Positions 22,687 to 30,650 of a DNA stretch of 33,727 nucleotides are shown one piece after another. The stretch is taken from assembly GCA_009992505.1 (NCBI GenBank), contig JAACVI010000113.1, forward strand, positions 1-33,727. Reading direction: 5' to 3'. Position 1 is the first letter of the stretch, and every line of letters begins with the position of its first letter. The position numbers and the translations under genes were made by a program. This DNA is from Myxococcales bacterium (GTDB lineage: Bacteria; Myxococcota_A; Polyangia; Polyangiales; Houyiibacteriaceae). Under the pieces are notes generated by a model. It searched no databases. It saw nothing but the letters and a program-made list of their open reading frames with translations, and was not told the DNA's origin.

Positions 22687-23151
22687 TCACGCGCACGAGA
22701 TGGTGACGTCGTGGGTGTGACCGTTGGTCAGGGACGACGTGATGGTGACGGGGCCGCCACCCTGGAGCGTGGTGAAGTCGGCCGCCGCGACCGTGAGGTC
22801 GTGCGTGTGGGAGGCCGTTCCCTGGATGTCGTAGACGACCTGCGCGCCCGCCGCGACATCGCTTCCCAGCACGTCCAATGCGTGTCCGTGGTTGGCGCTG
22901 ATGTTCGTCGTCGTGCCGGTGCACGCGGCCGTGCCCGTGTCGGCCGTGCCCGTGTCGGCCGTGCCCGTGTCGGCCGTGCCCGTGTCGGCCGTGCCCGTGT
23001 CGGCCGTGCCCGTGTCGGTCGCCGTGCCGGAGTCGGTCGCCGTGCCCGAGTCCGTGCCTGTGCTGTCGTCGCCACATCCGGTCATCGCGAGGACACCGAG
23101 CCCCACGCTGCCCACTGCCACTGTCTTCAAGAATCTTCGTCGAGTCGCCAT
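22687..23151 (-). CDS. Tat-type lipoprotein with DTGTA repeats and HTHD motifs
   Basis: 154-aa exported lipoprotein. The N-terminus contains TRRRFLK, an exact match to the twin-arginine consensus (S/T)RRxFLK, then a hydrophobic core and lipobox MTGC (C26). A spacer of repeated Asp-Thr-Gly-Thr-Ala units (about 30-75) follows, presumably a flexible stalk. The C-terminal ~75 residues are compact and His-rich: HGHALDV, then SHTHDLTVAAAD and GHTHDVTISC, apparently an internal duplication with two His-x-His sites and two Cys. A cupredoxin- or metal-binding-like fold is plausible but unproven. Tat export would fit a protein folded around a cofactor before export. The function is unknown. Confidence 0.78.
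   Translation of the reverse strand: MATRRRFLKTVAVGSVGLGVLAMTGCGDDSTGTDSGTATDSGTATDTGTADTGTADTGTADTGTADTGTADTGTAACTGTTTNISANHGHALDVLGSDVAAGAQVVYDIQGTASHTHDLTVAAADFTTLQGGGPVTITSSLTNGHTHDVTISCA
22931..23020. repeat. 15-bp tandem repeat array (6 units) inside the Tat lipoprotein gene
   Basis: Five identical 15-bp units plus one unit with a single change, 22931-23020. Each encodes DTGTA on the minus strand. Degenerate flanking units continue to about 23050. As 15 is a multiple of three, unit gain or loss would change only the stalk length. Confidence 0.95.
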
Positions 23152-23296: not shown

Positions 23297-23373
23297 GGAT
23301 GCTTAGCTCAGCTGGATAGAGCATCGGCCTCCGGAGCCGAGGGTCAGAGGTTCGAATCCTCTAGCATCCGCCA
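23297..23373 (+). tRNA. tRNA-Arg (anticodon CCG)
   Basis: A full cloverleaf can be drawn: acceptor GGATGCT/AGCATCC, D stem GCTC/GAGC, anticodon stem TCGGC/GCCGA with loop CTCCGGA (anticodon CCG at 23331-23333, reading CGG), five-base variable loop, T stem AGAGG/CCTCT with TTCGAAT loop, and discriminator G at 23370. The CCA end is encoded (23371-23373). Confidence 0.95.
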
Positions 23374-24144: not shown

Positions 24145-24420
24145 GGTCTACCTCGTCCGCTTCAGCTCGAGCGGCATCGGCCGTGCATTTGTTGACGAAA
24201 CGCCCGCCTCGTCGGAAGGGAATGTCCGACTGCGGACCGTTCCCGGACGCGTGGTGGGGCCTTCCTGCGTCAGGGAGGCGCTGGTGCGAATCGTGCACAG
24301 CAGCTGGCCCACGGCCCGGCGTGTGGCCCGTTCGTCGAGCTCCCGAGGCACTCCGTGTCGAGGTTCTCGTCGGGTCGGCACACGACGGAACGACCCCGGG
24401 ACACCCCTGGGGGCGACCGC

Positions 24421-24449
24421 TTGACACCCTTTCGCGCGCCGGGTAGCGT
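24421..24449 (+). promoter_or_regulatory. sigma70-type promoter P1 of the Cys-rich lipoprotein gene
   Basis: A perfect -35 TTGACA (24421-24426), a 17-base spacer and TAGCGT (24444-24449), about 95 bp before the ATG. The rest of the ~400-base gap (24145-24420) contains only Arg-rich, unconvincing frames and no recognisable RNA. Confidence 0.6.
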
Positions 24450-24460
24450 CGCGCGGATTT

Positions 24461-24488
24461 TTGACAGGCTTTCATTGGGATCTACGAC
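24461..24488 (+). promoter_or_regulatory. possible second promoter P2 of the Cys-rich lipoprotein gene
   Basis: A second perfect TTGACA (24461-24466), a 16-base spacer and TACGAC (24483-24488), 40 bases downstream of P1 and about 55 bp before the ATG. It is less certain because the -10 is poor. Confidence 0.4.
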
Positions 24489-24543
24489 CCGCTTGAAACC
24501 TGTCCAACGTCGGCCCGTTCCGGGCCGCGGAGGATGGATCGCT

Positions 24544-26112
24544 ATGGCTGAGATTTTCAGGATGACAGGACGGGCCGGCCTCATGGGTCTGGTTTGCGCC
24601 ATGGCCCTCGCGGGCTGTGGTGATGACAGCAGCTCACGCGCCGACTCGGGTTGCACGGGCATCTGCCTGGACGACGGCGGCACGGACAGCGCCACGATGA
24701 CGGACGCGGGTCCGGACACCGGCGTCATCGTCATCGACAGCGGCACGGACACCGGTATGCCGCCCAGCTGCGCTGGCGTCGGCGGCGCGTGCGACCCCGC
24801 ACGTGGTTGCAGCACCGGCGGCTGCTTGGCTGAGAACTCCACCAGCATCGGTGACGCCACCGACCCGATCGACATGGGGCCTGGCGGCGCCATCTCGATC
24901 CCTGCGATCTTCTGGCTCGGCGGCTACTGCTCGCCCAACATCAGCGAGACCGGCGGCCTCACCGCCTCCTGCGACGTGAACAACGCGGACGATCCCCTCT
25001 GCGGCGACTGCGCCACCTGCGTCAACGTGGGCGGCACGCCTCCCGCGGGCCTCTGCCTCGCCAAGTGCACCACGTCCATCACGGACAACGGCGGCTGCCG
25101 CACCGGCTACGACTGCAACCTCAGCATCGAGGCTTGCTTCCGGGGCTGCGGCGGCGACGACGAGTGCAAGGTCAACCGCCAGGACACCAACGGCATCGCG
25201 GGCATCCAGACGCCCACCGACTGCACGGGTGACTCGGCTCGCGCCGCAGCCGATCAGCTCTGCGGTGGCACGGACAGCAACTTCGACCACCTCGTCTATG
25301 ACGCGGCGTCGGCTTCGATCTGCGACACGCACACCTTCCGCTGCACCAACCCGGGCACGGCGGGCGCTCAGGGTGGTGACACCTGCACCGACGACACCCA
25401 GTGTGAGGCCGAGGGTCGCTGCCTCGACGAGGCCAGCTTCGACTGGCCCGGCGGCTACTGCACCAAGTTCCGCTGTGACCTCGCGGGCAACTCCTGCGCG
25501 GGTGACGCGGTCTGTCAGGATCGCCGCATCGGCGTCTCGCTCTGCCTCGGTGGCTGCACCGTCGCTGACGGCGCGACCATGGCCGACCAGGCCGCCTGGC
25601 TCACGAACCGTGGCGGCTGTCGCGACGGCTACTCCTGCACCTGGAACGGTGTCGGCGGCGCCGGTACGGCGAACAACGGCGCTTGCGTGCCCGGCAACTT
25701 CAACGCTGTCGCGGCCAACAACATCGGCGGTCCCTGCACGGCGGACGCCGACTGCTGGTCGCCCTTCGGCCAGGGCCTGTGCCTGACGCCGGCCGACGAC
25801 GGCTCGGGCTTCCGCAACGGCTACTGCACGGTGCTCGACTGCCTTGCCCCCGGCATGCCCACCAACACCTGTGGCACGAACGGCAGCTGCATCGATCTCG
25901 ACGGCTCCTCCGGCGACATCACGGGCTGCCTCCTGAACTGCACCGCGGCCACGGACTGCCGCCCGCAGTACGCCTGTGCCGACGCGGACGGTGACCCGAG
26001 CACCGCCGGCGGCCTGTGCGTGCCGAGCTGCTCCGCCTCCACGGAGTGTCGCAGCACCGAGACCTGCAGCATCCCCGCAGGTGACACGGTCGGCGACTGC
26101 GTCCCCATGTGA
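24544..26112 (+). CDS. large Cys-rich surface lipoprotein
   Basis: 522-aa lipoprotein with signal peptide and lipobox LAGC (C25), then an Asp/Thr/Gly-rich linker (about 28-72). The mature part has about 50 Cys in small repeated blocks such as GGPCTADADCW, GLCL, NGYCT and GGCRxGYxC, which look like many short disulfide-bonded modules. This is a common style of myxobacterial surface protein without assigned function. The ATG at 24544 has GGAGG ten bases upstream; the ATG at 24562 (M7) is an alternative that still leaves the signal. It is preceded by two TTGACA boxes and followed by a strong intrinsic terminator, so it is probably its own well-expressed transcription unit. Confidence 0.8.
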   Translation: MAEIFRMTGRAGLMGLVCAMALAGCGDDSSSRADSGCTGICLDDGGTDSATMTDAGPDTGVIVIDSGTDTGMPPSCAGVGGACDPARGCSTGGCLAENSTSIGDATDPIDMGPGGAISIPAIFWLGGYCSPNISETGGLTASCDVNNADDPLCGDCATCVNVGGTPPAGLCLAKCTTSITDNGGCRTGYDCNLSIEACFRGCGGDDECKVNRQDTNGIAGIQTPTDCTGDSARAAADQLCGGTDSNFDHLVYDAASASICDTHTFRCTNPGTAGAQGGDTCTDDTQCEAEGRCLDEASFDWPGGYCTKFRCDLAGNSCAGDAVCQDRRIGVSLCLGGCTVADGATMADQAAWLTNRGGCRDGYSCTWNGVGGAGTANNGACVPGNFNAVAANNIGGPCTADADCWSPFGQGLCLTPADDGSGFRNGYCTVLDCLAPGMPTNTCGTNGSCIDLDGSSGDITGCLLNCTAATDCRPQYACADADGDPSTAGGLCVPSCSASTECRSTETCSIPAGDTVGDCVPM

Positions 26113-26594: not shown

Positions 26595-27434
26595 GTGCAA
26601 GACAAGCCCATCTTCGTCGTCAGCGACTCCACCGGCGAGACCGCCGAGCGAGTCGTGCGCGCGGCCCTCTTGCAGTTCCCGCAGCATCGCGTGCGAGTGC
26701 GCCTCTTCACCCGGGTTCGCGACCGCGAGGCTGTGGCCGAGGTGCTGGAGAAGGCACGCGAGCAGGGCGCCATGGTGGTGTTCACCCTGGTGCGCCTCGA
26801 TCTGCGTGAGGACTTCCACCAGGTGGCGCACGAGCTCGGCGTCGAAGCGGTCGACGTGATCGGCTCGCTCATCCACAAGGTGGGCACCTTCCTCGAGGCG
26901 GCTCCGCTCAACGTGCCCAGCGCCCAGATGCCGCTCTCGGAGGAGTACTTCCGCCGGGTGGAGGCGATCGAATTCGCGGTCAAGAGCGACGACGGCAAGG
27001 AGCCGCGGAACCTCCGCCGCGCCGACCTCGTGCTCACGGGCGTCAGCCGCACCAGCAAGACACCGCTCTCCACCTACCTCGCGGGTCGCGGGTTGAAGGT
27101 GGCGAACGTGCCGCTCGTGCTCGGCGTCGAGCCCCCGCCGGAGCTGTACGAGGTCGCGCCGCACAAGGTGGTCGCCCTGACCATCGCCACCGACTCCCTG
27201 CGCGAGATCCGTCAGAAGCGCCTCGAGCAGCTCGGCATGCCGCCCGAGGCGAACTACGGGCTTCGCGATCACGTCCGAGCCGAGCTCGACTTCGCCCACA
27301 AGATCTTCAAGGCGCATCCCGAGTGGATGGTGATCGAGGTGACGGGTCGCGCCATCGAAGAGACGGCGACGATCATCCTCGAGGCGTTCAAGGATCGCGA
27401 CGAACGTCGGTTCGTAGCCGCGCCACCTGCCTGA
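26595..27434 (+). CDS. ppsR: PEP synthase / pyruvate phosphate dikinase regulatory protein (DUF299)
   Basis: Bifunctional kinase/phosphorylase of the DUF299 family that inactivates PEP synthase or pyruvate phosphate dikinase by ADP-dependent phosphorylation of a Thr and reverses it with phosphate. It is 279 aa, the normal length. Family hallmarks are IFVVSDSTGETAE at the start, the Ser/Thr-rich P-loop GVSRTSKTP (149-157), PLSTYLA, and the VPLVLGVEPP segment. The start is GTG at 26595. The target enzyme is not in the window, so whether it acts on PpsA or PpdK cannot be told. The upstream 49-aa gene is 41 bp away. Its stop lies in a three-copy 13-bp repeat. Confidence 0.92.
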   Translation: MQDKPIFVVSDSTGETAERVVRAALLQFPQHRVRVRLFTRVRDREAVAEVLEKAREQGAMVVFTLVRLDLREDFHQVAHELGVEAVDVIGSLIHKVGTFLEAAPLNVPSAQMPLSEEYFRRVEAIEFAVKSDDGKEPRNLRRADLVLTGVSRTSKTPLSTYLAGRGLKVANVPLVLGVEPPPELYEVAPHKVVALTIATDSLREIRQKRLEQLGMPPEANYGLRDHVRAELDFAHKIFKAHPEWMVIEVTGRAIEETATIILEAFKDRDERRFVAAPPA

Positions 27435-27465
27435 CTCGGCTGCCTGACTCGGCTGCCTGACTCGG
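27427..27465. repeat. 13-bp tandem repeat (3 perfect copies) over the ppsR stop
   Basis: Three identical 13-bp copies (27427-27439, 27440-27452, 27453-27465). Each copy carries a TGA, and because 13 is not a multiple of three the three TGAs fall in the three plus-strand frames. The first is the ppsR stop. The array fills the gap between converging genes. Confidence 0.95.
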
Positions 27466-27470
27466 CGTGC

Positions 27471-28247: not shown

Positions 28248-30650
28248 ATGGATCTCCCCAGGCCTTTCGGTCAATACAGCCTGTTGCGCCGCTTGGCCGT
28301 AGGCGGGATGGCGGAGGTCTATGTAGGCAAGGCGCGCGGTCTCGGTGGCTTCGAGAAGCTCGTGGCCATCAAGGTCATCCACCCGCGCTACTCCGAGGAT
28401 CCGCACTTCCTCGACATGTTGGTGGACGAGGCCAAGCTCGCGGTCCTGCTGAACCACGTCAACATCGCCCAGGTCTTCGACCTCGGGCAGCACGAGCACA
28501 CCTACTTCATCGTGATGGAGTTCGTCGAAGGCGCCGACACCTCGAGGTTGTTGGCCCGGACGCGCGAGCTCTCGAAGAAGCTGCCCTTCGACGTGTGCGC
28601 CCACATCGCGGCCGAGGTCTGCAACGGCCTCGACTACGCGCATCGTCGGCGTGACTCGGAGGGGCGCCCCCTCGGCATCGTGCATCGCGACATCTCGCCC
28701 CAGAACGTGATGGTCAGCTTCGCCGGCGAGGTGAAGGTCGTCGACTTCGGCATCGCCAAGGCCGCTCAGCGCTCGAGCGAGACCGAGGTCGGGGTGATCA
28801 AGGGCAAGTACTACTACATGTCGCCGGAGCAGGCCTGGGCCGATCCCGTGGACCACCGCAGCGACATCTTCTCCACCGGCGTCGTGCTCTACGAGCTGCT
28901 CACGGGCGAGATGCTCTATCAGGAGAACAACCTGCCAGACCTGCTGGCCAAGGTGCGCAAGGCGGAGATCGACCCACCGTCCAGCGTGCGCCACGGAATC
29001 CCCGAGGAGCTCGACGCCATCACCATGAAGGCGTTGGCGGCGCGCCCCGAGGATCGCTACCAGTCGGCCTTCGACTTCGGTCAGGCGCTGACCCAGTTCG
29101 TCTACGGCTTCAACGCCTCCTTCGCTTCCGGCCGCATGGCGGCGCTGATGGCGGAGGCCTTCTCGGACGAGCTGGCCAAGGCGACGGCGACCATCCGGCT
29201 GCCTTCGGCGGAGCAGGTGCTGACCTCCAACATGACGACCGACGGCGGTGGCTCCACGGAGGAGCACTCGCTGCCACCCATGAACGCGGACGACTTCCTG
29301 CCCGACTCGGCCAAGAGCGTGATCTTCGAACTCGAGGCGGACGAACGCGACCACATGACGCGTCGGGACATCCCTCCCTATCGGCGGCGCGCCAACCTCG
29401 CGGCCACGTCCGACGAGGCCCGACGGCAGACCGGTCCCGTGTCCATCGTGGAGTCCCTGCCCGCCGTCGACGAGGCCGACGAGGAGGAGGACCGGACGAT
29501 CGTGCAGACCGGTGGCCCGGAGCTGTGGCGTTCTCTGGGCATCGGGCGCCCGGCCGCACGACCGAAGGACGACGAGAGCGACACCAGCAGTCCGGGCTTC
29601 GCGCCGGAGCCCACGATGGTGGACTCCACCGGCGATCTCGCGCGGCGCGTGCGCGAATCGTTGTCCGACAAGCGCGCCGGTCGGGGCGTGGCTCCGCCAC
29701 CCGTGGCGCGCCCATCCGCGCCCCCACCCGTAGCCCGCCCATCCGCGCCCCCACCCGTAGCCCGCCTGTCGGCTCCGCCACCCGGGGTGATGCCGCCTCC
29801 GGCACCCATGCCCACGCCACGCCCTGCCGCAACGCTGCCCTGGGGAGGCGCCCCCGTTCACCACTCCCCACCACCGCCACCTGGTCCCGCGCCGCCCGGC
29901 TCGATCCCAGCGGCGGATCCCTTCGCTCCGCCTTCCTTCCCTGGGATGGATCCCTTCGGCCCGCCGCCCCCCCTCTCTGCCGAGCCGCTGCCCGCGGTGG
30001 CCAACTTCTCCGCCGCGAGCGCGATGGTCGCGAACCTGCGCCGGCGCTGGCGCTGGGTTCTGGGCCTGGTCGTCGTCGTGACCGTCCTCGCCTTCGCCTT
30101 CGGCGCGCTGCTCTCTCCGGGCTCCCCCGAGGCCACGCTCTCGATTCGCTCGACACCGGCGGGTGCCCGGGTGCAGCTCGACGGGCACGCGCTCCCCGGC
30201 CTGACGCCCCTGGCGAGCGTTCCCGTGGAGGTGGGCCATTCCTATCATTTGCGCGTCGAAGCCCAAGGCTATCGACCCACCGAGGTCGTGTTCACCGCTC
30301 GCGCGGGTTCCCAGGGGCAGACCGTGTCGCTACAGCGCCCGCGCGTGAGGCTCAGGGTCGAGGCCTCCACAGCGGAGCTACGGGTCAGCATCAACGGCTC
30401 GGAACCCCAACCTCCGCCTGTGGAGATTCCGGGTCTGCTGCCGGGCAGCAGCGTGCGCATCCTGGTCTCGGGACCTGGAGACGCGCCCGAGCGCGAGCTC
30501 TCGCACGTGGTCAGCACCGACGATCCCAACGTCCTGAACGTCGATCCGCCGCCGTCGGCCGCCGTCCCGGAGCCTGCGCCGCCTCCAGGTCGGCCACCGC
30601 GTCGGCCGGCGCCGCGTCGGCCGCACATCTTCCGGCTCCCGCGACACTGA
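28248..30650 (+). CDS. transmembrane Ser/Thr protein kinase with PEGA domain
   Basis: 800-aa Hanks-type kinase. The kinase domain is at about 8-285: Gly loop LAVGGMAEVYVG (16-27), VAIK with K42, alpha-C E61, catalytic HRDISPQN with D148, DFG at 166-168, and SPEQAW in the P+1 loop. All key residues are present, so it should be active. A long Pro/Ala-rich linker follows, including three nearly identical 9-residue APPPVARPS units (29691-29771), then one membrane helix at about 603-623 and a periplasmic PEGA domain at about 629-697 (TLSIRSTPAGARVQLDG). A Pro-rich tail ends in basic residues. The PEGA domain probably senses or binds the envelope. It diverges from a cNMP-binding protein and converges with panC with only four bases between. 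Confidence 0.93.
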   Translation: MDLPRPFGQYSLLRRLAVGGMAEVYVGKARGLGGFEKLVAIKVIHPRYSEDPHFLDMLVDEAKLAVLLNHVNIAQVFDLGQHEHTYFIVMEFVEGADTSRLLARTRELSKKLPFDVCAHIAAEVCNGLDYAHRRRDSEGRPLGIVHRDISPQNVMVSFAGEVKVVDFGIAKAAQRSSETEVGVIKGKYYYMSPEQAWADPVDHRSDIFSTGVVLYELLTGEMLYQENNLPDLLAKVRKAEIDPPSSVRHGIPEELDAITMKALAARPEDRYQSAFDFGQALTQFVYGFNASFASGRMAALMAEAFSDELAKATATIRLPSAEQVLTSNMTTDGGGSTEEHSLPPMNADDFLPDSAKSVIFELEADERDHMTRRDIPPYRRRANLAATSDEARRQTGPVSIVESLPAVDEADEEEDRTIVQTGGPELWRSLGIGRPAARPKDDESDTSSPGFAPEPTMVDSTGDLARRVRESLSDKRAGRGVAPPPVARPSAPPPVARPSAPPPVARLSAPPPGVMPPPAPMPTPRPAATLPWGGAPVHHSPPPPPGPAPPGSIPAADPFAPPSFPGMDPFGPPPPLSAEPLPAVANFSAASAMVANLRRRWRWVLGLVVVVTVLAFAFGALLSPGSPEATLSIRSTPAGARVQLDGHALPGLTPLASVPVEVGHSYHLRVEAQGYRPTEVVFTARAGSQGQTVSLQRPRVRLRVEASTAELRVSINGSEPQPPPVEIPGLLPGSSVRILVSGPGDAPERELSHVVSTDDPNVLNVDPPPSAAVPEPAPPPGRPPRRPAPRRPHIFRLPRH
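29691..29771. repeat. 27-bp tandem repeat (3 copies) in the kinase linker
   Basis: Three 27-bp units (29691-29717, 29718-29744, 29745-29771) encoding APPPVAR(P/L)S, with a few third-position differences, then a degraded fourth unit. In frame, so copy-number change would only alter linker length. Confidence 0.9.

Follow-up and report, generated by a model that had tools for sequence, protein, structure and literature searches.

The window analyzed here, a 33,727-nucleotide stretch of DNA from a Myxococcales bacterium, contains on its minus strand, which the first-pass annotation had left unstated, a small lipoprotein gene, and the 136 unique relatives of its product settle that this open reading frame (22687–23151) is a real gene. 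Read directly from the N terminus, the protein consists of the motif TRRRFLK, the sequence LAMTGC with Cys26, a stalk, and a C-terminal domain of residues 77–154 (Table 1); the presence of this domain had been recognized correctly, its size being 78 rather than about 75 residues. The GC-rich hairpin just past the stop codon is a possible 3′ end, not a classical terminator, because it lacks a T run, and it was not picked up in the terminator scan. Behind this strong hairpin, comEC follows 178 bp downstream of the lipoprotein gene; an operon with comEC was rejected in view of the intervening 178 bp and hairpin and of a pairing that did not emerge as recurrent among relatives, the other neighbours being unrelated. 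Elsewhere in the window, a 13-bp unit (CTGCCTGACTCGG) is perfectly repeated in tandem (3.1 copies, 27427–27466) across the end of a gene and the space that separates convergent genes, and a 27-bp GC-rich repeat (3.3 copies, 29697–29784) lies within ORF 28248–30650.

Table 1 Features of the lipoprotein locus, with window positions, strand, and basis or remarks.
Feature	Position	Strand	Basis or remarks
Complete lipoprotein gene, 154 aa, ATG start, TGA stop	22687..23151	-	ORF and relatives
Tat-type lipoprotein signal peptide, residues 1–25	23077..23151	-	Sequence; TIGR01409 above cut-off
Twin-arginine motif T-R-R-R-F-L-K	23125..23145	-	Sequence; family tally
Lipobox M-T-G-C with lipidated Cys26 (predicted)	23074..23085	-	Sequence; regex in relatives
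Low-complexity stalk, residues 27–76: degenerate DSGTAT/DTGTA repeats, then pure array	22924..23073	-	
Pure array, six identical 15-bp units GACACGGGCACGGCC (DTGTA)	22927..23016	-	TRF and codon listing
C-terminal six-histidine domain, 78 aa	22690..22923	-	Not in Pfam, NCBIfam, PDB
HxH motif 1, HGH	22882..22890	-	H12 83%, H14 99% of 156 copies
HxH motif 2, HTH	22801..22809	-	H39 and H41 both 100% of 156 copies
HxH motif 3, HTH	22711..22719	-	H69 89%, H71 99% of 156 copies
GC-rich hairpin just past stop codon	22645..22681	-	RNA fold -35.1 kcal/mol, z -2.9
tRNA-Arg (CCG), divergent, just upstream of lipoprotein gene	23297-23373	+	

The N-terminal region agrees with the Tat consensus S/T-R-R-x-F-L-K followed by a moderately hydrophobic stretch, and it scored 18.5 bits against the NCBIfam model TIGR01409 (cut-off, 16.7). 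The lipobox, with its invariant Cys and a Met at position −3 that is rarer, yet acceptable, has regex-positive counterparts in 118 of the 136 relatives. The exact Tat motif and the lipobox named in the first-pass annotation are thus both confirmed, supporting its identification of the product as a probable Tat-type lipoprotein. Its further proposal, that metal binding would explain Tat export, was rejected as unproven, since signal types vary across the family: in a regex tally of the 136 relatives, RR was found in 53, RK in 45, and another residue after R in 21, with 17 unassigned, some of which are genuine RR signals missed by the script, the tally not being that of a trained predictor. Moreover, a few members (L145, L147, L154, and L158) carry Sec-like lipoprotein signals and keep the histidines. 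A Tat signal therefore appears to be usual in the family, not obligatory, and so gives no proof of a cofactor.

The stalk contains a tandem array of high purity, delimited by TRF at 22926–23018 (period 15, 6.2 copies, 100% match); at least five identical units had been counted initially, and the actual number is six. All six DTGTA units are alike even at synonymous sites, for which the chance is about 1.5e-7 under local codon usage, pointing to a recent expansion at the DNA level and not only to constraint on the protein. The earlier suggestion of length change, drawn from the near-identity of the units, thereby gains signs of recent change, and the DSGTAT units on the upstream side of the array have already diverged. 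Among the relatives, stalks are between 1 and 193 residues long (median near 42), and some proteins have almost none; tandem arrays, of unrelated units, occur in the stalks of 61 of 126 relatives, and stalk composition or length differs between close relatives. The DTGTA repeat is also present on an unrelated lipoprotein of the window genome, and other lipoproteins with closely related DSG/DTG-type stalks were found both there and in a genus mate (sister genome). Within the window, a second lipoprotein (24355–26112, plus strand) fits this general theme of stalked lipoproteins: its signal is Sec-like, its DSG/DTG-type stalk is short, and it has a long repeat region rich in cysteine and no Pfam match.

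These features raise the question of whether the stalk itself is the point of the locus, namely a phase-variable or contingency locus switching surface display. Such a role would accord with the synonymous identity of the six units, with the arrays in the relatives, and with the length differences between close relatives; we consider it very improbable, however, given that a 15-bp unit preserves the frame and leaves no on/off switching, that similar stalks are borne by unrelated lipoproteins of the window genome and its sister, and that some relatives nearly lack a stalk. With the frame preserved, stalk length would be tunable, and expression would not be switchable. Because it is borne by other families of the genome, is built from unrelated repeats in relatives, and has an array in the window that recently expanded, the stalk is best read as a generic, interchangeable, slippage-prone linker that is not specific to the six-histidine protein. 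Its length seems free to change, and the histidine domain stays while stalk and signal vary among relatives. The stalk may offer a clear example from nature of in-frame slippage shaping a linker whose head is fixed, and the domain, not the stalk, is the important part of the protein.

The family of this domain is directly documented by 136 unique ORFs with 156 domain copies, taken from the fetched loci and all from Myxococcota. Domain matches were obtained in 26 of 97 relatives and in 89 of 290 genomes of the class, the window genome having one copy, and the nine named loci recovered with the consensus query come from MAGs of Myxococcales, Polyangia, and Polyangiaceae, a kinship that assigns the window to Myxococcota. 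A divergent clade, linked to the main one by profile-profile comparison (E 2.7e-19), reaches other classes of Myxococcota; no relatives of the domain were found in the plasmids, phages, and viral contigs searched. In the genus mate the gene was not found, an absence that perhaps reflects an assembly gap, since the contig of that genome breaks inside comEC. Two tandem domains are present in some relatives (L090, L091, L099, L100, L116, L103, L107–L109, L114, and L115), which belong to one genus with very large genomes of about 11–13 Mb; in the members read, motif 1 of the second domain is DEH, not HGH, and some of these versions lack a clear lipobox although their signal is Tat-like. The domain thus occurs in about one-third of the sampled genomes of the class, often in multiple copies, yet has no entry in Pfam, NCBIfam, or PDB.

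The conservation of the histidines is observed directly in the alignment. H14, H39, H41, and H71 occur together in 153 of the 156 copies and all six histidines in 113, while His makes up only 0.6% at the remaining domain positions. Redundancy does not explain these values, as they hold among 96 representatives below 60% identity (0.98–1.0 for the four histidines, 0.85 and 0.91 for H12 and H69). Moreover, among nine members of the divergent clade, which share 26–63% identity with the first row, no column other than those of the six histidines is invariant. Where H12 is lost, the usual substitute is Asp (9%), which is a metal ligand too. The first-pass annotation had listed HGH and paired HTHD motifs; the histidine pairs stand, as three HxH motifs, whereas the Asp following the second and third varies across the family, and HTHD was rejected as a motif. 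It had also taken the pairs as suggestive of metal binding, an idea that would have lost ground had the histidines been non-conserved; it passed this check, and the pattern, with four histidines almost always retained, looks ligand-like.

Histidine pairs can also serve as pH switches. The conserved histidines might accordingly be explained by pH sensing or by an acid-dependent conformational change; we find this hardly credible, since three spaced HxH pairs invariant at such low identity and the exchange of H12 mainly for Asp are both ligand-like traits. Among the other residues in the 156 copies, Y31 and G35 reach 90%, D22 82%, and C77 79%. C40 always occurs with C64 (8/8) and an N-terminal Cys with C77, a pairing that fits disulfides in an oxidised exported domain.

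Structure prediction by AF2 on the window domain, with ten sequences, gave a best model of pLDDT 89.2 (the other four of five, 76–81), in which a compact fold is formed in the order strand, [HxH] short strand, helix, strand, [HxH] strand, helix, strand, [HxH] strand, each HxH standing immediately before a β-strand. The order was unchanged for a second member (pLDDT 83.7). The domain is thus predicted to comprise two β-α-β repeats followed by a last strand. Within the family consensus, HGHALTVPAADVA can be aligned with HSHTVTLTAADFA at a score that 7 of 5000 shuffles also attained; this resemblance of the two halves is no more than suggestive of a duplication, because the HxH motif itself drives the alignment score. 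Sequence searches of Pfam, NCBIfam, and PDB with the window domain and two profiles yielded nothing above cut-off, nor did Pfam searches with 23 + 9 family members, and Foldseek searches with two models against PDB and BFVD returned no match at E <= 0.001. Cupredoxin and other known periplasmic metal-binding folds, in particular, gave neither a profile match with the 23 + 9 members nor a fold match in PDB. The initial impression that no known family comes to mind agrees with these profile and structure searches.

The surroundings of the relatives' genes gave no functional link: their neighbours are of many kinds, recurring mainly within close relatives, and no recurring neighbour for metal transport or sensing was seen among these loci. 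In four loci of the divergent clade (L160, L162, L164, and L166), a gene for a conserved uncharacterised protein of about 350 aa lies upstream of the domain gene and one for an Ig/carboxypeptidase-regulatory-like lipoprotein downstream, a set that is possibly a conserved operon; L081 and L158 have upstream genes related to that for the ~350-aa protein. In the L062 locus, a molybdopterin oxidoreductase gene (L062:199-1497, plus strand) lies directly upstream, and an MtrC/MtrF-like cytochrome, predicted to be of the outer membrane, is encoded nearby (L062:2950-4689, minus strand). This last arrangement would suit a redox or catalytic centre, in which a His-only site with Fe or Cu deals with periplasmic oxygen species or electrons, as would the invariant histidines standing alongside nearly invariant Tyr31 and Asp22. 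A centre of this kind seems improbable, however, since the L062-type neighbourhood does not recur, an octahedral ion would have all its positions taken up by six histidines, with none left open, and no enzyme fold in PDB or BFVD matched.

Collectively, the six histidines very probably hold a metal ion, and we infer that the protein is probably a lipoprotein that binds a transition metal outside the cytoplasm, using a single-chain triple-HxH site on a flexible stalk, its metal binding, metal identity, and cellular role being deduced from the features above. Presumably, the Tat-type signal would carry the protein across the inner membrane, lipidation of Cys26 would tether it to a membrane, and the flexible stalk of about 50 residues would keep the small C-terminal domain off the bilayer. 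From the topology, the three HxH motifs are predicted to converge at one end of the fold, where a transition metal, namely Fe(II), Zn, Ni, or Cu, would be ligated by four to six histidines. The likeliest job would be extracytoplasmic capture, buffering, or presentation of metal at the envelope, and slippage in 15-bp steps would shift stalk length with the frame kept, altering reach alone. Because the octahedral six-His iron site of phage fibres and spikes takes one HxH from each of three chains (PMC6116203), three HxH motifs within one chain are chemically sensible. More tentatively, and with somewhat less than even expectation, the domain may represent a new Myxococcota family with a hexahistidine octahedral Fe(II)-type site held in one chain at the tip of a lipid-anchored stalk.

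The histidines could instead hold a metal that is purely structural, or have a function that involves no metal. The main rival to metal capture or buffering is a purely structural metal, the triple-HxH ion clamping a tiny domain whose real job would be to bind a glycan, peptidoglycan, or a partner protein. In the fibres of phages and pyocins, the iron held by HxH motifs is presumed to act in folding or stability (PMC6116203), a stalk with a small head looks like a device for presentation, some versions carry two domains in tandem, and no metal genes lie nearby; yet, His aside, the two clades share no strictly conserved residue, and Y31, G35, D22, and L53 look structural. We regard the structural alternative as unlikely, though deserving of weight. 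The conserved residues point to an unusual, all-histidine metal site that can be put to the test, and the structure of one such 78-residue domain would give an annotation to a whole family of small lipoproteins from myxobacteria and perhaps a new compact fold for metal binding.

Comparison with known systems places the window protein as follows. Its signal lies above the curated cut-off of the TIGR01409 Tat family, but this model covers the signal only, without the domain, and the second Arg is absent in about half of the relatives. For YmaF (PF12788), the distant member L084 matched the C-terminal half of the profile (E 7e-4), but at 20.5 bits, below the 27-bit cut-off, and as a single member of nine; neither the window protein nor anything elsewhere in the window genome matched, and membership in YmaF was rejected. 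The calprotectin-type site (S100A8/A9) is likewise a six-His transition-metal site, formed in an EF-hand heterodimer whose fold is unrelated to that of the window domain. Closest in ligand arrangement are the HxH iron sites of T4 gp37, P2 gpV, the phi92 spike, and R-pyocin fibres, which use six histidines as three HxH per ion (PMC6116203), as the window domain has, at the sequence level, six histidines in three conserved HxH motifs. In the fibres, however, three chains contribute one HxH each to a trimer, whereas the window domain carries all three in one chain within β-α-β repeats; searches for sequence or fold kinship to fibre or spike proteins found no convincing PDB match and no Foldseek match at E <= 0.001 (PDB, BFVD), so that the likeness is one of analogy, not membership. 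If the proposed reading is true, a single chain would here form the kind of hexahistidine site that is otherwise known from trimeric fibres.
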